Assembly: GCA_021732845.1 (NCBI GenBank)
Contig: JAKFUF010000037.1
Span: 1-64,000 of the forward strand
Length of the DNA: 64,000 nucleotides
Source of the DNA: Planctomycetaceae bacterium
GTDB taxonomy: Bacteria; Planctomycetota; Planctomycetia; Planctomycetales; Planctomycetaceae
Direction of reading: 5' to 3'
Shown here: positions 4,171 to 63,968 of the stretch, one piece after another
How the letters are laid out: each line of letters starts with the position of its first letter
Numbering within the stretch: position 1 is the first letter of the stretch
Translations under genes and position numbers: made by a program
Notes under the pieces: generated by a model
The model's input: only the letters and a program-made list of their open reading frames with translations
Told to the model about the DNA's origin: nothing
Database searches by the model: none

Positions 4171-4198
4171 CGTGCTGGCCGAACGCCGATCCTGGATC

Positions 4199-4321
4199 AC
4201 GAGAAGGGGTACCACGAATTTTCACGAACACGACGAAGGACCCGAATGGCAACGAGATGGATTCCATCACCCGCAAAGTGAGGCCGGTTGATGATTCGTG
4301 AGATTCGCATGATTCGTGGTT
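4199..4321 (+). repeat. CACGAAT-arm inverted repeat, copy 1
   Basis: The left arm reads ACCACGAATTTTCACGAAC and the right arm GATTCGTGAGATTCGCATGATTCGTGGT, with a conserved centre (GGATTCCATCACCCGC..GGCCGGTTGAT). The flank ACGAGAAGGGG is shared with the copies at 36962 and, in reverse orientation, 17107. This is one of five copies in the window, all between genes. The centre and flanks are conserved as well as the arms, so this is a dispersed element rather than a simple repeat. Confidence 0.8.
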
Positions 4322-4409
4322 CAATATCAAACCATACGATTTACAGATCGCGGAGCCGACATTTCTCGTGTCGCAGTCATGTCGGACCACAAGTTTCGCA
4401 GGAATGTCG

Positions 4410-4598
4410 TAGGGATCGCGGCAACAATAACATGGTGAAGTTGCTTGGGATGGACGCCGATTGAGGGCAGATTCATCAGCCGGCACGCGTTAGCGCGCGT
4501 TAGCGTCCGGTTCGTGGCGTTGGCGTCTTCCGATCATCCTCCAACTCATTGGCTGTGCGGCTCGTCAAAAATCGACAGTTATTCTTGCCGCGGTCCTA
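4410..4598 (-). mobile_element. MITE-like element, copy A
   Basis: A 189-bp segment bounded by imperfect terminal inverted repeats. The left end is TAGGGATCGCGGCAACAATAAC, and the reverse complement of the right end is TAGGACCGCGGCAAGAATAAC. The interior matches copy C (54280-54489) in opposite orientation over nearly the whole length, including GATGATCGGAAGACGCCAACG and CGAACCGGACGCTAACGCG. It lacks a 32-bp block present in B and C and has an extra GCTAACGCG unit. It carries no coding capacity. The size, terminal inverted repeats and dispersed copies fit a non-autonomous miniature element; no matching transposase is present in the window. Confidence 0.75.
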
Positions 4599-8620: not shown

Positions 8621-9577
8621 ATCAACCGTCTCGTGCTCCTGCTCGTCATCACGCTCGCCTTAACCGCACGCGCCTCCGATCCGGTCTTCTCGGGTCCGCA
8701 GGTGGGCGAAAAGCTGCCGGAGTTCAAACTTCGCGGGGTGTTTGACGACGACGCCGGCAAGGAACTGGATTTTGTGAAGCAGGCGAACGGCAAGCCGATC
8801 GTGTTGATCTTCATTCACGACCTGAACCGGCAGTCGATCGCCATGACGCGAATTCTCTCGCAATACACGGCAAGCCGCGCGAAGGAGGGGCTGGCGACCG
8901 GGGTCGTGTGGCTCGACGATGATGCCACCGAAGCCGAGTCGACGCTGAAGCGCATCCGCCATGCGCTCGCCAAAGAGGCCCCGATTGGGATTTCCGTCGA
9001 CGGCAAGGAGGGGCCGGGAAGCTACGGCCTCAACCGCAAGGTGATGCTCACGATTCTCGTCGGCAAGGAAGGCAAGGTGACCGGGAATTTCGCCCTCATT
9101 CAACCGAGCCTGCAGGCCGACTTGCCCAAGATTTTGGACAGCGTGGTCGCCGTGGCCGGCGGCAAGGTTCCCAAGCTGGAAGAATTGGAAGGCATGCGTG
9201 AAATGCCCCGCAAGGAGCCCGCTCGGGAGCAGGATCCCAACCTGCGCGGCTTGCTGCGGCCGGTGATTCAGAAGAACGCCACGCCGGAAGAGGTCGACAA
9301 GGCGGCGCTCGCTGTTGAGGAGTATGTGAACAAGAAGGGGAACGAGGCCTCCCGCAAGGAAGTGGGACGGATCGCCAATACGATCATCGACGCTGGCAAG
9401 CTGCCGGACTATGGAACACCGCGCGCCCAGGAGTTTTTGAGAAAATGGGCCAAAGACTTCGGCGGGAAACGCGACGACAAGCCCCAAGAGAAGCCCCAAG
9501 AGAAGCAACAAGACAAACCGCAAGACCAATCTGAAGAGAAACCGGGAGCAGCGCGGAAATCCGGAGACAAGGAATGA
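8618..9577 (+). CDS. Exported redoxin-like (thioredoxin-fold) protein without CxxC
   Basis: A 319-residue protein. The ATG at 8618 gives a clean signal peptide (MINRLVLLLVITLALTARAS); an in-frame ATG at 8543 would place repeat-encoded residues in front of it. Residues about 25-190 have a redoxin/AhpC-like layout (VGEKLPEFKLRGVFDDDAGK, KPIVLIFIHDLNRQSIAMT), but there is no cysteine pair at the usual active site, so it is unlikely to be a classical thiol oxidoreductase. A charged tail at about 287-310 repeats KPQEKPQEKQQDKPQ. Its stop overlaps the next gene start (ATGA at 9574-9577), linking it to the cytochrome-like protein. Confidence 0.85.
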   Translation: MINRLVLLLVITLALTARASDPVFSGPQVGEKLPEFKLRGVFDDDAGKELDFVKQANGKPIVLIFIHDLNRQSIAMTRILSQYTASRAKEGLATGVVWLDDDATEAESTLKRIRHALAKEAPIGISVDGKEGPGSYGLNRKVMLTILVGKEGKVTGNFALIQPSLQADLPKILDSVVAVAGGKVPKLEELEGMREMPRKEPAREQDPNLRGLLRPVIQKNATPEEVDKAALAVEEYVNKKGNEASRKEVGRIANTIIDAGKLPDYGTPRAQEFLRKWAKDFGGKRDDKPQEKPQEKQQDKPQDQSEEKPGAARKSGDKE

Positions 9578-11796
9578 GCTTGTCCGCCATCCTGCTGGCG
9601 GCTTTGGCGCCTGCGGTCTGCTTTGCCGAGCCCGGCCGGTCTTGGGACTTCGACACGGAAATCATGCCGGTGCTGACCCGTGCGGGCTGCAATGCCGGTG
9701 CCTGCCATGGAGCGGCCGCCGGCCGGGGTGGCTTTCATTTGTCGCTGCTGGGCTCTGACCCAGCGAGTGACCACGCGGCGATTGTCCAAGAATTCGAAGG
9801 CCGGCGGATCAACCCCGCACATCCCGAGCGGAGCCTGCTCTTGGCCAAGCCCACCGGTCGGATGGACCACGGGGGGAACACCGTGCTGCAACCGGATGGT
9901 GCCGGCGCGGCGCGGCTGGTGGAATGGATTCGCGATGGCGCACCCCGTGGCTCAAGCCGTCGCCTGCTCAACCTGCGGGTGTCCTACGAACCGCTCCAAG
10001 AGCGGTTGCCCGCCAGTGAGCGAGGAACCCCGACAGCGGTTGAAGAAGGCGGCGCAGGCCGCCCATCCGCGCCAGGGGTTTCGGAGCGAGCAAGACTTAC
10101 CAGGGTCCCGATCCAGGTGACGGCCACTTTTCAAGGCGCGTCCGGAGAACCGGGCGAGCCACAAGATGTCACCGCTTGGACGGTGTTCACTCCCGCCGAT
10201 CCGGCGGCGGTTGAAGTTGGCGAAGATTATGTCGCGCGGGTCACGCGTCGCGGACAGCATGTGGTCATGGCCAGATTCCTGTCGCGCGTGGTGCCGCTGC
10301 AGTTCAGCGTTCCGCTCTCGGACCAAGAAGTGAAGCTGGCGGGTGAGCCACGGGCGAATTTCGTGGACGACGAGATTCTGCGGGTCTTGTCCGAATTGCG
10401 CGTGCCGGTTTCACCGCCGGCCACCGATGCCGCGTGGCTGCGCCGCGTTTCCCTCGACCTGACGGGACGATTGCCGGAGCCAGCGCTCATCAATGCCCAA
10501 TTGCAGGACAAGACCCCTGATAAGCGTGGCCGGCTTGTCGACTCCCTGCTGAACAGTGAGGCCTACGCCGACTATTGGACGCTCAAGTTTGCCCGGTTGC
10601 TGCGACTGCACTCGCTGACGAATGAACCCGAGGCCTTGCAGGCCTATTCCACGTGGCTGCGGCGCGAAATTGCCGCCGACACCGGGCTGGACCAACTGGC
10701 GCGGCAACTGTTGACAGCCACGGGCGATTCCCATGTCGTGGGGCCGGCCAACTTTGGCCGGATGGTGGCCGACGCGCGCGGTCAGGCGGAACTTGTGGGT
10801 CAGTTTTTTCTGGGCGCGCGATTGGGCTGCGCCAACTGCCACAACCATCCGCTCGACAAGTGGACGCAGGCCGACTACCACGGCCTGGCCGCCGTCTTCG
10901 CGCGACTCGACCGCGGCCGCGAGGTGCGGTTGCTGTCACGAGGAGCGGTGACCAACCCGCGAACCTGCGAGCCCGCAGTCCCGCGGATACCTGGAGTGAA
11001 AGATCTGCCTGAAGGTGACAATCGCCAAGCCGTGGCCGACTGGCTGACCGCCGGCACCAATCGGCAATTCGCCAAAGCGACCGTCAACCGGTTGTGGCGG
11101 GCGCTCTTCGGCCGGGGTCTGGTTGAACCCACGGACGACATGCGGGAGACGAACCCGCCCACGCACCCCGCGCTGCTCGACCGCCTCGCCGATGACTTTG
11201 TGGAGCATGGCTGCAGCTTGCGGCACACACTCAGACTGCTGGCATTGAGCAATACGTATGGACGCAGTGATTCTCTGGTTGAGGGCAACGCCAGGGACGA
11301 TCGCTTCTATTCGCACGCCTTTCGCCGTCCCCTGGAGCCGGAAGTTCTGGCCGATGCGATTGCCGATGTCACTGGAGTGCCTGAAGAGTATGCGGGACAG
11401 CCTGGTGGCACCCGCGCCGTGGCTCTGATCGATCCGCTGAGCCCGGCTTCCTCGCTGGATGTGCTTGGCCGTTGCACTCTGCTTGGTGGCTGCGAAGAGA
11501 AGCCCGCCGTGGCTGCCGGCCTGGAAGCACAATTGCACCTGCTCAATGGCGAATTTATCAACGGCAAGTTAACCGCCGAAAGCGGCCGGCTTCGTCAATC
11601 GATCGCGGCACAACGCACGTATGCCGAAATTGTAGATGAATTCTACCAGCGGGCACTGGGGCGGCACGCCACAGATGCCGAAGCGGCGCGCTGGAGTACA
11701 CGGCTGCAAGCCGCGGACGAGAGCGAACGCAGGCAGCGCCTGGAAGATTTCGTCTGGAGTCTGCTCAACAGCCGACAGTTCATGGAAAATCACTGA
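9574..11796 (+). CDS. DUF1549 / DUF1553 secreted cytochrome-c-like protein with in-frame 29-aa repeat insert
   Basis: A 740-residue exported protein starting MSLSAILLAALAPAVCFAEP. The haem-like motif is CNAGACHG (C-x4-C-H) near residue 42, a spacing different from the C-x2-C-H of the two other large proteins here. A DUF1549 region starts near 264 (WLRRVSLDLTGRLPEPALI). DUF1553 spans about 482-740 (VNRLWRALFGRGLVEPTDDM). Residues 148-176 are encoded by an 87-bp element that also occurs twice in the alcohol dehydrogenase gene at 62616. The start overlaps the redoxin stop, and a DUF1501 gene follows. An envelope location and an oxidative role are inferred from the family. Confidence 0.92.
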   Translation: MSLSAILLAALAPAVCFAEPGRSWDFDTEIMPVLTRAGCNAGACHGAAAGRGGFHLSLLGSDPASDHAAIVQEFEGRRINPAHPERSLLLAKPTGRMDHGGNTVLQPDGAGAARLVEWIRDGAPRGSSRRLLNLRVSYEPLQERLPASERGTPTAVEEGGAGRPSAPGVSERARLTRVPIQVTATFQGASGEPGEPQDVTAWTVFTPADPAAVEVGEDYVARVTRRGQHVVMARFLSRVVPLQFSVPLSDQEVKLAGEPRANFVDDEILRVLSELRVPVSPPATDAAWLRRVSLDLTGRLPEPALINAQLQDKTPDKRGRLVDSLLNSEAYADYWTLKFARLLRLHSLTNEPEALQAYSTWLRREIAADTGLDQLARQLLTATGDSHVVGPANFGRMVADARGQAELVGQFFLGARLGCANCHNHPLDKWTQADYHGLAAVFARLDRGREVRLLSRGAVTNPRTCEPAVPRIPGVKDLPEGDNRQAVADWLTAGTNRQFAKATVNRLWRALFGRGLVEPTDDMRETNPPTHPALLDRLADDFVEHGCSLRHTLRLLALSNTYGRSDSLVEGNARDDRFYSHAFRRPLEPEVLADAIADVTGVPEEYAGQPGGTRAVALIDPLSPASSLDVLGRCTLLGGCEEKPAVAAGLEAQLHLLNGEFINGKLTAESGRLRQSIAAQRTYAEIVDEFYQRALGRHATDAEAARWSTRLQAADESERRQRLEDFVWSLLNSRQFMENH
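10014..10100 (+). repeat. In-frame 87-bp intragenic element, copy 1
   Basis: The segment encodes 29 residues beginning SERGTPTA and containing GRPSAPGVSERARLT. It matches each tandem copy at 62975-63148 in length and in most bases (GCGAGGAACCCCGACAGCGG; CATCCGCGCCAGGGGTT). It has an internal palindromic character: GGAACCCC near one end pairs with GGGGTTCC-like sequence near the other, and a GGCGGCGCAGGCCGCC hairpin lies in the middle. It keeps the host frame open. Confidence 0.85.
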
Positions 11797-16845: not shown

Positions 16846-16999
16846 TAGGACTGCGGCAAGAATAACTGTCGACTTTTGACAAGCCGTACAGCCAATGAGC
16901 CGGAGGGCCTTAGCCGGCCTTAGCCCCCGGTTGGAGGATAATCGGACGACGCCAGCGCCACGAACCGGACGCTAAGGGTCGCAGCAAAAATATCTGTGA
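16846..16999 (+). mobile_element. MITE-like element, copy B (rearranged)
   Basis: It begins TAGGACTGCGGCAAGAATAAC and continues TGTCGACTTTTGACAAGCCG..CAGCCAATGAGCCGGAGGG, matching copy C in direct orientation, including the GGCCTTAGCCGGCCTTAGCC block absent from copy A. After CGAACCGGACGCTAAGG it does not continue into the usual right half. Instead it runs into GTCGCAGCAAAAATATCTGTGAC, a decayed second left end in direct orientation. It therefore looks like a truncated or fused copy. Confidence 0.7.
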
Positions 17000-17106: not shown

Positions 17107-17242
17107 TAACCACGAATTTTCACGAATCATACGAATATCACGAATGATCAACCGGCATGGCTTCGCGGGTGATGGAATCCTGCGCGTTGTGATTCGTGAC
17201 ATTCGTCTTATTCGTGAAAATTCGTGGTCCCCCCTTCTCGTT
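17107..17242 (-). repeat. CACGAAT-arm inverted repeat, copy 3 (best preserved)
   Basis: The left arm is ACCACGAATTTTCACGAATC followed by two further CGAAT words. The right arm is ATTCGTGACATTCGTC followed by TTATTCGTGAAAATTCGTGG. The outermost 18 or so bases of the two arms are perfect inverse complements. The centre (GGGTGATGGAATCCTGC) and the flank CCCCTTCTCGT match the copies at 4199 and 36962 in reverse orientation. Confidence 0.8.
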
Positions 17243-30180: not shown

Positions 30181-30305
30181 TCAATGACCCAATTCCCAAT
30201 GAATCAATGACCAATGGACCAATGAGTTGTTGAACTACCGTGATCTCGCGCTCAACAGCATTGGTCATTGGAGCATTGGTCATTGGAGCCTTGGTCATTG
30301 AGTCA
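30181..30305. repeat. CAATGACC-arm inverted repeat
   Basis: The left arm is CAATGACCCAATTCCC then CAATGACCAATGGACCAATG. The right arm is CATTGGTCATTGGAGCATTG followed by GTCATTGG words. A 45-base loop (GTTGAACTACCGTGATCTCG..) separates them. The arms could fold into a long imperfect stem in the pilin transcript. The same design stands before the next two pilus genes. Confidence 0.75.
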
Positions 30306-30325
30306 TTTCAAAGGATGCGGAGGGC

Positions 30326-30844
30326 ATGATCTCGCTGTCATGTGGTCTCATGCTGGGGTTCACGCTCGCGGCGGCAGTCACTGACATCTGGTGGCACAAG
30401 ATCTTCAATTCGACGGTCTACCCGGGGATTTTGGTCGGCTTTTTGATGAGTGTGGCCGACCCGCAGGGGATCGGCTGGCAGGATAGTCTGGCAGGATTCG
30501 GGCTGTGCGCCGGCGTGATGCTGGTGACGTTCGTGATGTTCCCCTCCGTGGGCGGTGGAGACCTGAAACTGGTGGCGATGATGGGGGCATTCCTGGGACT
30601 GTCCCGGGGGCTGGAAGGAATGCTGTGGACTTTCGTCCTCGGCGCGATGCTGGGAATCATGCAGTTGATCTGGACGGTGGGGGCGGTTCAGTTGGTGCGG
30701 CAGGTGGCCCACCACCTGTGGCTCACCCTCAAATACCGCTTCGTGATCCCGTTGAGTGAAAGGGAACGGCTGACCCTGCAAATGCCGCTGCGGCTCGCCC
30801 CCGCGGCATTCTTGGCGGAGTTGATTGTGCTGGCTTCGCAATGA
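30326..30844 (+). CDS. tadV: Prepilin peptidase (TadV/CpaA type)
   Basis: A 172-residue integral membrane aspartic protease of the A24 family, without the methyltransferase half, as usual in Tad systems. The catalytic aspartates are in AAAVTDIWWHKIFN (near residue 19) and SVGGGDLKLVAMMGAFLG (GGGD, near 74). It cleaves the leader peptides of the Flp and TadE/TadG-like proteins in this locus. The stop TGA at 30842-30844 lies within the first word of the following CAATGACC array. Confidence 0.92.
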   Translation: MISLSCGLMLGFTLAAAVTDIWWHKIFNSTVYPGILVGFLMSVADPQGIGWQDSLAGFGLCAGVMLVTFVMFPSVGGGDLKLVAMMGAFLGLSRGLEGMLWTFVLGAMLGIMQLIWTVGAVQLVRQVAHHLWLTLKYRFVIPLSERERLTLQMPLRLAPAAFLAELIVLASQ

Positions 30845-30953
30845 CCCAAGGTCCAAGGCCCCAATGACCAATGTCTCTTAAGCAACCCTGTCGACGCTAA
30901 TCAAACAACCCATTGGTCATTAATTCATTGGTCATTGGGTCATTCACCTCGGT
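30841..30953. repeat. CAATGACC-arm inverted repeat
   Basis: The left arm is CAATGACCCAAGGTCCAAGG then CCCCAATGACCAATG. The right arm is CCATTGGTCATTAATTCATT then GGTCATTGGGTCATT. The loop between is unlike that of the copy at 30181. The first word overlaps the stop codon of the peptidase gene, and the element ends six bases before the next start codon. Confidence 0.75.
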
Positions 30954-31966: not shown

Positions 31967-31985
31967 CTGCGCATTGACGAGCTGC

Positions 31986-32101
31986 AATGACTCAATGACC
32001 AAGGCCTCAATGACCAAATTTTTGTTCGAAATCTGCCCTTAAGTCTTAGCAGTCGCTGATCCCATCACATTGGTCATTGTTTCATTGGTCATTGTGACAT
32101 T
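31986..32101. repeat. CAATGACC-arm inverted repeat
   Basis: The left arm is CAATGACTCAATGACCAAGG then CCTCAATGACCAAA. The right arm is CATTGGTCATTGTTTCATTG then GTCATTGTGACATT. The loop is AT-richer (TTTTTGTTCGAAATCTGCCC). This is the third copy standing directly before a Tad gene. Confidence 0.75.
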
Positions 32102-32119
32102 CCCCCACAGGGGCCTATC

Positions 32120-36853: not shown

Positions 36854-36961
36854 CGTTGACGGCGCGGATCAAATTGTCCGGCGACTCCCATGGGGGGCGA
36901 ACAATGACTTGTGCAACAATTGCTGTCCGTTTCAAGGTGTTAATCGAAGGCCGAATCTAGA

Positions 36962-37086
36962 TTACGAGAAGGGAAACCACGAATTTTCACGAATAAGGCG
37001 AATGACACGAATGGCAACGAAATGGGTCCCATGACCCGCGGTGTCAAGCCGGTTGAGCATTCGTGAAATTCGTGAAATTCGTGGTC
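36962..37086 (+). repeat. CACGAAT-arm inverted repeat, copy 5
   Basis: The left arm is ACCACGAATTTTCACGAATA then AGGCGAATGACACGAATGG. The right arm is CATTCGTGAAATTCGTGAAA then TTCGTGGT. Centre GTCCCATGACCCGCG and flank ACGAGAAGGG match the copy at 4199. The 36854-37234 gap between cpaB and the motor gene holds this element, one AGGAT arm and an ATTTGTC array, with no gene. Confidence 0.8.
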
Positions 37087-37144
37087 AAATTTCTGACCTT
37101 CCGGTCCAGTCGCTGTGCTGCCGGACCAGCAGACATGACCAACA

Positions 37145-41228: not shown

Positions 41229-41265
41229 CAATGCCCCAATGACCAATGAAACAATGACCAATGGA
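41229..41265. repeat. CAATGACC word array, single arm
   Basis: CAATGCCCCAATGACCAATG then AAACAATGACCAATGG. The last word (CCAATGG) contains the ATG start codon of tadC at 41261, so here the repeat serves as the translation start region and no separate Shine-Dalgarno sequence is visible. Confidence 0.7.
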
Positions 41266-54282: not shown

Positions 54283-54489
54283 GTGTCGCGGCAAGAATAA
54301 CTGTCGATTCTTGACGAGCCACACAGCCAATGAGCCGGAGGGCCTTAGCCGGCCTTAGCCCCCGGTTGGAGGATGATCGGAAGACGCCAACGCCACGAAC
54401 CGGACGCTAACGCGTGCCGGCTGATGAATCTGCCCTTAATCGGCGTCCATCCCAAGCAACTTCACCATGTTATTGTTGCCGCGATCCTA
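54280..54489 (+). mobile_element. MITE-like element, copy C (longest)
   Basis: A 210-bp segment running from TAAGTGTCGCGGCAAGAATA to GTTATTGTTGCCGCGATCCT; its ends are imperfect inverse complements. The interior contains CAGCCAATGAGCCGGAGGGC then CTTAGCCGGCCTTAGCC, and AAACGCC..GAACCGGACGCTAACGCG. It matches copy A inverted and the first half of copy B directly. Immediately after it, TAAGTGTCGCGGCAACATTG repeats the left end in direct orientation, which suggests another insertion or a duplicated end. Confidence 0.75.
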
Positions 54490-62615: not shown

Positions 62616-63968
62616 ATGGCTGAATTGAATTACGACTTCTTCTCTCCGCCACAGGTTGTTTTTGGCTGGGGGCGACGGACTGAACTCGGGCGGCTGGCGG
62701 GCGGGCTGGGCCGCCGCGCGTGGATCGTGGCGGGGTCGCGCACGCTGGAGCGCTCGGGAACGCTCACCGAATTGTGCGGACTCCTGAGTGAGGCGGGCCT
62801 GATTGCCGAAGTCGTGGCTAACATTTCCCGCGAGCCTCTGGTGACGGATGTTGACCTGCTGGTGCAGGCGCTGCGCGAGCGCCGGACGGGCGCGGGTGAC
62901 GTGATGATCGCCGTCGGCGGCGGCTCGGCGATCGATCTGGCCAAGGCGGCCGGGGCGCTGGTCATGAACCCCTTCAGCGAGCGAGGAACCCCGACAGCGG
63001 ATATGGAAGGTGGCGCAAGCCACCCATCCGCGCCAGGGGTTCCGCAGCGAGCAGGACTTACCAGCGAGCGAGGAACCCCGACAGCGGATATGGAAGGTGG
63101 CGCAAGCCACCCATCCGCGCCAGGGGTTCCGCAGCGAGCAGGACTTACCAGCAACACGGTCAAGGATTTTTTAGAGGGGGTCGGCCGGGGGCTCAAAATC
63201 GTCCATCCGCCACTGCCGCTCTTGGCCATGCCGACGACCGGTGGAACAGGCACCGAAGCCACCAAGAACGCAGTGATCTCCAGCTTCGACCCGCCGTTCA
63301 AGAAGAGCCTGCGGTCGGAATGGATGGTTCCCCGGTGCGTGCTGATCGACCCGGAGCTGAGCTGTTCCGTGCCGCCGGATGTGACCGCCTGGACGGGGCT
63401 GGATGCGATCACGCAATGCTTGGAGAGCTACATTACCCTCAAGCCACGGCCGATTCCGCAGGCTCTGGGACTGCAGGGCTTGAAGCTCGCCGTGCCGGCG
63501 CTGCCGGAGGCTGTTCGAGATGGCCAGTCGGTGGAGGCCCGCTGCGCGATGGCGCATGCGGCGTTCCTCTCGGGGATGGCCCTGGCCAATTCCGGCCTTG
63601 GCGTGGCTCACGGCATTGCGGCCTCCCTGGGTGTTCATGCGCATGTCTCTCATGGGCTGGCGTGCGCGGTGCTGCTGCCCACCGCCATCCAGGTGAACCG
63701 TGGGGTGCGGGAACGCGAGCTGGCGTACTTGGGCACGGAGCTGACCGGTCGCAGTTGGTCCACGCCAGCGATGGCGATCGACGCGCTGGCCGATCTGATT
63801 GGCGGACTGCTGAGCGACCTGTCGATCCCGCACCGCCTCTCACAACTCGGAGTCAAGCCCGAGCAACTGGATGACCTCGCCGCCGGCTCCCAAGGCAACA
63901 GCCTCAATGGCAACCCACGGGAACTGTCAGTGGCGGACGTGCGAAAGATTTTGGAGGAGCTGCTGTGA
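62616..63968 (+). CDS. Iron-containing alcohol dehydrogenase with two in-frame 29-aa repeats
   Basis: A 450-residue Fe-ADH-type oxidoreductase. YDFFSPPQVVFGWGRRTELG opens the fold. The NAD site is IAVGGGSAIDLAKAAGALV, followed by LLAMPTTGGTGTEATKNAVI, ILD-type metal region PELSCSVPPDVTAWTGLDAI and the His cluster GVAHGIAASLGVHAHVSHGL. Residues 121-178 are two tandem copies of a 29-residue element (SERGTPTADM..HPSAPGVPQRAGLT). Without them the protein is 392 residues, the normal family length. The insertion falls in a loop between the NAD-binding and PTTxGTGTE motifs, so activity may be retained. Substrate unknown. Confidence 0.92.
   Translation: MAELNYDFFSPPQVVFGWGRRTELGRLAGGLGRRAWIVAGSRTLERSGTLTELCGLLSEAGLIAEVVANISREPLVTDVDLLVQALRERRTGAGDVMIAVGGGSAIDLAKAAGALVMNPFSERGTPTADMEGGASHPSAPGVPQRAGLTSERGTPTADMEGGASHPSAPGVPQRAGLTSNTVKDFLEGVGRGLKIVHPPLPLLAMPTTGGTGTEATKNAVISSFDPPFKKSLRSEWMVPRCVLIDPELSCSVPPDVTAWTGLDAITQCLESYITLKPRPIPQALGLQGLKLAVPALPEAVRDGQSVEARCAMAHAAFLSGMALANSGLGVAHGIAASLGVHAHVSHGLACAVLLPTAIQVNRGVRERELAYLGTELTGRSWSTPAMAIDALADLIGGLLSDLSIPHRLSQLGVKPEQLDDLAAGSQGNSLNGNPRELSVADVRKILEELL
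62975..63148 (+). repeat. In-frame 87-bp intragenic element, tandem copies 2 and 3
   Basis: There are two directly repeated 87-bp units (62975-63061 and 63062-63148), identical as far as can be read. Each begins CAGCGAGCGAGGAACCCCGA and ends GCGAGCAGGACTTAC. Each encodes 29 residues and keeps the host frame. A GGTGGCGCAAGCCACC hairpin lies mid-unit, and GGAACCCC pairs with GGGGTTCC across the unit. They match the copy at 10014-10100 in an unrelated gene. Confidence 0.9.

Follow-up and report, generated by a model that had tools for sequence, protein, structure and literature searches.

The alcohol dehydrogenase gene and its doubled insert

Near the end of the window, which denotes the whole 64,000-nucleotide stretch analysed here, an open reading frame on the forward strand (62616..63968, 450 residues) encodes an iron-type alcohol dehydrogenase (ADH), as indicated by Pfam matches to ADH_Fe_C (3.6e-37) and to Fe-ADH, the latter split over two stretches (3.4e-33), as well as by a Foldseek search with the ADH model, which returned structures of the Fe-ADH family (best 8zrl_A, E 1.1e-27). 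The gene carries two adjacent 87-bp palindromic units on the same strand, unit 1 at 62978..63064 and unit 2 at 63065..63151, with the C-N-G trinucleotide CAG (62975..62977) directly to the left of the first, which is read as SERGTPTADMEGGASHPSAPGVPQRAGLT in sense frame 2. The original prediction had described two identical neighbouring copies, and they agree at 87 of 87 positions over 62978-63151; TRF reports a period of 87, 2.0 copies, 100% matches and a score of 356 at 62975-63152. Removal of both units leaves the predicted 392 residues (450 - 58), and the insert lies where it had been placed, between GGGSAID and PTTGGTGTE, both in the reading frame and in the alignment of homologues. A third unit of the window (10017..10103, forward strand), present as a single in-frame copy, occupies residues 148-177 of a 740-residue PSCyt2/PSD1 (DUF1549/DUF1553) protein assigned by Pfam (9574..11796, forward strand) and is identical to the ADH unit at 76 of 87 positions, in line with the divergence already noticed for the copy in the other gene.

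Both ADH units share the variant GGATATGGAAGG, which occurs nowhere else in the 1.48 Mb of genome examined, so that a duplication in situ after that change is the simplest origin of the pair; the two units are also mutual best matches among the units compared, and the recent tandem duplication that had been proposed is supported on both grounds. The element is found in none of 109 ADH homologues from other genomes, a set made up of the top 29 loci of one search and the top 80 of another, in which the same genome possibly occurs twice. In 90 of these homologues the loop is exactly as long as in the window ADH without its insert, and in the remainder it differs by -1 to +17 residues, apart from one homologue without a spanning alignment. 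The named relatives belong nearly all to Planctomycetota. One homologue from another genome (L132) bears at the same loop a 17-residue insert that is unrelated in sequence. An AlphaFold model of the ADH built from 30 sequences has a mean pLDDT of 85.6 and a single segment below 50, residues 122-178, corresponding to the insert, which is covered by no homologue in the alignment, a circumstance that lowers confidence there too. Modelling had been suggested as a check, and the notion of a tolerant loop gains support from it and from the loop lengths of the homologues; the ADH insert is probably a disordered loop.

Anatomy and hairpin of the element

A unit begins with T/CGAGCGAGGAACCCC, continues as a nested palindrome with outer arms GGAACCCC/GGGGTTCC, middle arms GCGGAT/ATCCGC and a GGTGGC-GCAA-GCCACC head, and ends in GAGCAAAACTTACCAG. 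When one unit was folded, none of 200 shuffles was as good on either strand (z -4.35 and -5.13). Across 44 units, 96.6% of the stem cells pair, and pairing falls to 33-53% when the partners are slid by 1-3 columns. The stem shows compensatory changes: four pairs changed on both sides, and none of 500 shuffles scored as high on any of five measures, although relatedness alone can, by the tool's own caveat, yield such values. A known RNA family was rejected, since at Rfam gathering scores the window gives a group II intron alone, at 47-126 (RF00029, 54 bits). A unit elsewhere in the genome (L037:9879-9965) has lost one base in its loop and gained one near its end and still measures 87 bp; these compensating indels put its middle part in another frame and restore that of the host.

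Copy number and occurrence

The original prediction had explained the repeat by a step within the ADH gene, which is not supported as a complete explanation: the unit is dispersed through the genome, mostly behind C-N-G, and 28 of 86 arrays lie inside called genes. In the host assembly (9.25 Mb, 262 contigs), a search with one unit gave at least 98 matches, with 40 of the 133 first-look candidates scored, and a covariance model built from 44 units matched all 150 candidates scored, that is, at least 150 among 10139 first-look candidates. An HMM run at E up to 1e-4 over the 1,476,968 bases fetched located 174 units in 86 arrays, 46 of them single, 19 double and 21 with three to eight units, arranged head to tail. 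The stretches of this census were picked for listed copies, supplemented by the one that follows the window (L118) and ten from contigs without listed hits; no unit occurs in the 11 stretches chosen without a listed copy (L068-L070, L118-L125), which do not form a random sample.

Outside the host genome, no match appeared in the searches made. At the model threshold, the element was matched in one of 170 genomes of the family and one of 392 of the phylum sample, the host genome being included in each count; these searches applied stricter filters and scored few candidates per genome (family 26, phylum sample 11), and may have passed over diverged relatives of the element. Likewise, 541 kb of sequence from 120 loci in other genomes gave no copy, and neither did genome contigs by exact 22-mer, viral contigs by exact 21-mer or plasmids by blastn, the genome-contig, viral and plasmid collections being ones from which records very near the host genome are possibly left out. 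The element is thus dispersed within one planctomycete lineage, with no match in the relatives searched.

Flanks and target

On the left of 85 arrays, position -3 is C in 79 and position -1 is G in 80; the base between the two is A in 50, C in 25, T in 7 and G in 3, and the one at -4 varies. On the right of these arrays, T occupies +1 in 38 and G occupies +2 in 60. These counts use a first set of boundaries, from which 14 arrays were later moved to C-N-G by at least one base. The units themselves mostly end in a C-N-G of their own (CCAG or CCCG). The left trinucleotide differs from CAG in 14 of the 46 single-unit arrays, and in none of these 14 does the same trinucleotide recur at the right end, so that strict target-site duplication in singles was rejected; single copies look to sit after C-N-G without such duplication. 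An origin as a MITE of a DDE transposon finds no support on the same count, the duplication expected of it being absent from the 14 non-CAG singles. Several multi-unit arrays have CCG at both ends and one has CGG/CGG, as target-site duplication would also give, and duplication stays compatible with the CAG singles and with these CCG and CGG arrays. Movement of the IS200/IS605 type involves an HUH enzyme that cuts hairpin DNA in single-stranded form, and the insertion follows the 3' end of a short, fixed target that is not duplicated; the flank pattern of the element agrees with this type.

Array growth and orientation

Among units in arrays of two or more, 79 of 117 have their best match within their own array, compared with a mean of 3.6 after shuffling of labels (166 of the 174 units were compared, eight partial ones being dropped). 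Of 88 pairs of neighbouring units, 11 are identical and 77 differ. Most of the change in array size appears to come from whole units duplicated locally in tandem, which need not hold for every array: of 18 two-unit arrays, 10 consist of mutual best matches and eight do not, so that age or separate insertions contribute too.

The element strand follows the local gene direction in 58 of 86 arrays, and in gaps between co-directional genes 27 of 36 arrays point with the genes. Gaps between convergent genes seldom hold an array (3 of 53, against 125 of 676 gaps, P 0.007). Agreement with GC skew was seen in 39 of 86 arrays, and orientation along the lagging strand was rejected on this count, although the skew is very weak and the test low in power. 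A strand that follows genes and is independent of skew is not directly predicted by a lagging-strand HUH mechanism.

Insertions inside genes and frame choice

By a codon-model gene caller, 28 of 86 arrays are intragenic, compared with a coding fraction of 0.81 (P 4e-22), which indicates that genes are avoided. For the frame test, each array was excised by script and the empty site scored for coding context, which avoids the bias towards open frames; three of the 86 arrays, too near a fetched end, were left out, and 17 of the 83 tested proved strongly coding. All 17 of these arrays preserve the reading frame and are free of stops, under a home-made codon model that favours intact genes on both sides and by which decayed genes could be missed. 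Cruder boundaries gave 18 frame-keeping arrays of 19 and one broken; the broken case (L035:4924) and L056:9931 fell out of the coding set once boundaries were moved. Among arrays of two or more units, the length is a multiple of three in 9 of 9 coding cases and in 14 of 29 others (P 0.005).

Pfam matches were obtained for 14 of the 17 strongly coding host frames, namely Fe-ADH, two PSCyt2/PSD1 proteins, a ClpB-like AAA protein, GDPD-DUF885, an HI0933-like flavoprotein, an AAA_33/APH protein, GT87, DUF5682, Mfd (TRCF), two cytochrome-c/TPR proteins, a PMT/TPR protein and a YHS protein; L042:11918, L051 and L058 gave no Pfam match. Frames for DUF1501, GalT-like, YhcG and GGT proteins also span copies and fall below the strict codon threshold, and in the GGT frame the copy lies near the N terminus and may precede the true start. 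The array at L033:9708-10229 was rejected as intragenic, because a signal-peptide-like start follows it and the codon model fails there. Many Mfd homologues match as separate stretches, one ending near residue 307 and the next starting near 360; homologues without the insert were compared in full for ADH alone among the hosts.

Of the 65 distinct units of 87 nt, 1 has sense frame 0 open, 41 have sense 1 open and 64 have sense 2 open, and antisense frames 0, 1 and 2 are open in 62, 64 and 25, respectively. Of the 17 coding arrays, 12 are read in sense 2, three in sense 1 and two in antisense 0. Sense 2 encodes the hydrophilic peptide SERGTPTADEEGGASHPSAPGVPQRAKLT and its variants; under a null based on CAGTG phases in 353 control frames, 4.4 arrays would be expected to use it when open frames are considered (P 1e-4). 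None of the 17 uses either of the two stop-rich frames (P 0.01). For these two results, two other motif nulls gave P values of 2e-4 and 1.5e-6, and of 0.009 and 8e-4. Antisense 1, which is open and encodes several Cys and Trp, is used in none of the 17. The inserts encode a SERGTPTADEEGGASHPSAPGVPQR-type peptide. The hydrophilic frame is thus favoured among intragenic copies, and this preference would reflect a bias in survival.

Candidate movers and neighbouring repeats

Five Y1_Tnp matches were found in the host genome, and no element copy was found flanking the Y1 gene at any of the five loci. One of them, a decayed Y1 transposase gene (L074:1501-1880, G000:C4), contains a copy of the element at L074:1638-1716 and was rejected as the mover on account of its decay and of the element inside it. 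Beside the other four no copy is adjacent: L127 has one diverged unit about 7.6 kb away (E 1.8e-6), and L130, where the contig runs out shortly past the gene so that one side is visible for only some 230 bases, gave one match of E 0.9.

The host genome has one class-3-like HUH/Y1 TnpA gene that was found (L129:2154-2660, G000:C215), assigned to class 3 by eye from two motifs, SNHCH and YTVEAQ, with weak Pfam and NCBIfam matches. Arrays of CGGA-footed palindromes of the TCACCGGACGGCTTGCGCCGTGCCGCT type lie on both sides of it (L129:1800-3060), and the window has further copies of this palindrome near 546, 593, 17302 and 29409. The reverse strand of the 87-bp element reads CGGATGGGTGGCTTGCGCCACC and has CGGA and the 10-mer GGCTTGCGCC in common with the L129 repeat, at a spacing of 5 nt in the element consensus and 1 nt in that repeat. 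The class-3-like TnpA is offered as a lead to the mover of the element and not as proof. A RAYT-like Y1 transposase of 222 residues (L128:1273-1941, G000:C228), which matches NCBIfam REP_Tyr_transpos below the cut-off, has a palindrome of the L129 type beyond one end.

The window holds other repeats as well: a dispersed palindrome family rich in ATTCGTGAA (4180-4338, 17108-17233 and 36945-37103, and also L128:2147-2268); clusters of the short repeats CAATGACC / CATTGGTCATTG in both orientations (30182-30311, 30839-30948, 31985-32105 and 41229-41265); and a further family (4413-4598, 16846-16982 and 54287-54487) with direct copies 93% identical over 123 nt and inverted ones 99% over 83 nt.

Comparison with known systems

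To our knowledge, the mode of movement of in-frame palindromic elements is unsettled. Such elements are reported from Rickettsia, Wolbachia and an archaeon (PMC2996958); those of Rickettsia and Wolbachia lie in frame in unrelated protein genes, typically in non-structured segments (PMC10969869, PMC2996958), and the Rickettsia elements (RPEs) measure about 150 bp and form ten families (PMC10969869). The element described here is likewise palindromic, dispersed and in frame in unrelated genes; unlike RPEs, it is 87 bp long, belongs to a planctomycete, forms head-to-tail arrays of up to four units inside genes and has no match in the other genomes searched. On the best reading, it would be a planctomycete counterpart of RPEs in its behaviour, and membership of a named family is not claimed.

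Among other hairpin repeats, REPs are described in a 2013 survey as 20-40 bp long with a GTAG or CGTC tag, present in phyla that include Planctomycetes and decorating reading frames of several bacteria, repair genes among them; in Thauera and R. conorii, clusters of them code for 43 to 82 residues (PMC3733652). The element resembles them as a high-copy hairpin that is partly intragenic, and the repair gene Mfd carries a unit; unlike GTAG/CGTC REPs, it is 87 bp long, has neither tag on either consensus strand and flanks no RAYT that was found, and REP/RAYT membership was rejected on size, tag and transposase flanking. The class 3 TnpA-Y1 enzymes are reported mainly from Planctomycetes, Acidobacteria and Proteobacteria together with high-copy, atypical hairpins that have a CnGA foot and lie around the gene (PMC6006769). 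On its reverse strand the element shares CGGA and GGCTTGCGCC with the repeat around the class-3-like gene of the host genome; it possesses a second, outer palindrome and does not flank that gene. PARCELs are tandem coding repeats with dyad-symmetric DNA in Mollicutes and others, amphipathic and, in Mollicutes, located in surface lipoproteins (PMC2996958); the element differs from this description in occupying varied enzymes and cytochromes. Among the open-licence papers listed by the searches, no such element inside planctomycete genes came to light. Within the literature searched, the phylum, the amplification in one species among those searched, the intragenic head-to-tail arrays and the measurable choice of frame are new.

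Proposed origin and spread of the element

The observations are probably best explained by a non-autonomous hairpin mobile element, that is, a protein-coding palindromic element, which has spread in one planctomycete lineage, is kept in frame and duplicates locally into arrays. Its copies would move as DNA, presumably in trans through an HUH/Y1 (TnpA) enzyme. Insertion would occur 3' of C-N-G, often with TG after the element, and the length of 29 codons together with the open frames would make it compatible with positions inside genes. Most copies that disrupt the frame or introduce a stop would be lost, and the hydrophilic frame would be the best tolerated, so that surviving intragenic copies would probably form disordered loops. 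Arrays may then be resized largely by local tandem duplication, as in the recently doubled ADH unit; for that gene, the simplest course is that a single unit arrived as a dispersed element and was duplicated second.

Several other accounts deserve consideration. A protein module retained because its sequence is useful, for instance as a linker or for binding, and carried from gene to gene by recombination, would suit the use of one frame in 12 of 17 strong coding insertions and the likeness of the peptide between unrelated proteins. Such a module is, however, quite unlikely, given that 58 of 86 arrays lie outside called genes, where their lengths drift off multiples of three, that two further frames are used, one of them antisense, that the host proteins are unrelated and the ADH insert is predicted to lack structure, and that what is conserved is a hairpin in the DNA, in whose stem changes compensate one another. 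That the hairpin serves, as RNA or as DNA, mainly between genes, in transcript ending, mRNA stability or REP-like enzyme binding, with the intragenic copies as by-products, is unlikely: its folding surpasses all 200 shuffles and 27 of 36 arrays between co-directional genes run in the gene direction, yet its scarcity between convergent genes is not that of a terminator. A hairpin role in addition to mobility is possible.

The doubled ADH insert invites two further accounts. The slippage or unequal crossover invoked by the original prediction fits the duplication step, as witnessed by identical neighbours with a private variant, and that step stands; a purely local slippage repeat, by contrast, cannot explain an 87-bp hairpin in at least 86 genomic arrays, is refuted as a full account and retains virtually no probability. 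It is also very improbable that the second ADH copy arose in assembly. The genome is in 262 contigs and a 174-bp array can exceed a short read, and the identity of the ADH pair itself keeps an error there compatible with the data, but 40 of 86 arrays hold at least two units and most adjacent pairs (77 of 88) differ, unlike a simple assembly error.

A more far-reaching form of the mobile-element reading, which is conceivable though rather doubtful, is that of a selfish hairpin on which element-level selection has acted to keep its length and frames compatible with coding. A class-3 HUH transposase whose usual substrate is a different repeat would move it in trans; it would have recoded many proteins of one species with disordered inserts of 29 to 116 residues, and its right end, itself a target, would allow new copies to stack into arrays as well.

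The element constitutes a large family of coding palindromes in a different phylum, with enough copies for the choice of frame to be set against a target-site null. Since one genome holds both coding palindromes and candidate HUH enzymes, the spread of such palindromes could be tested in a single organism, as could the entry of new disordered segments into proteins.
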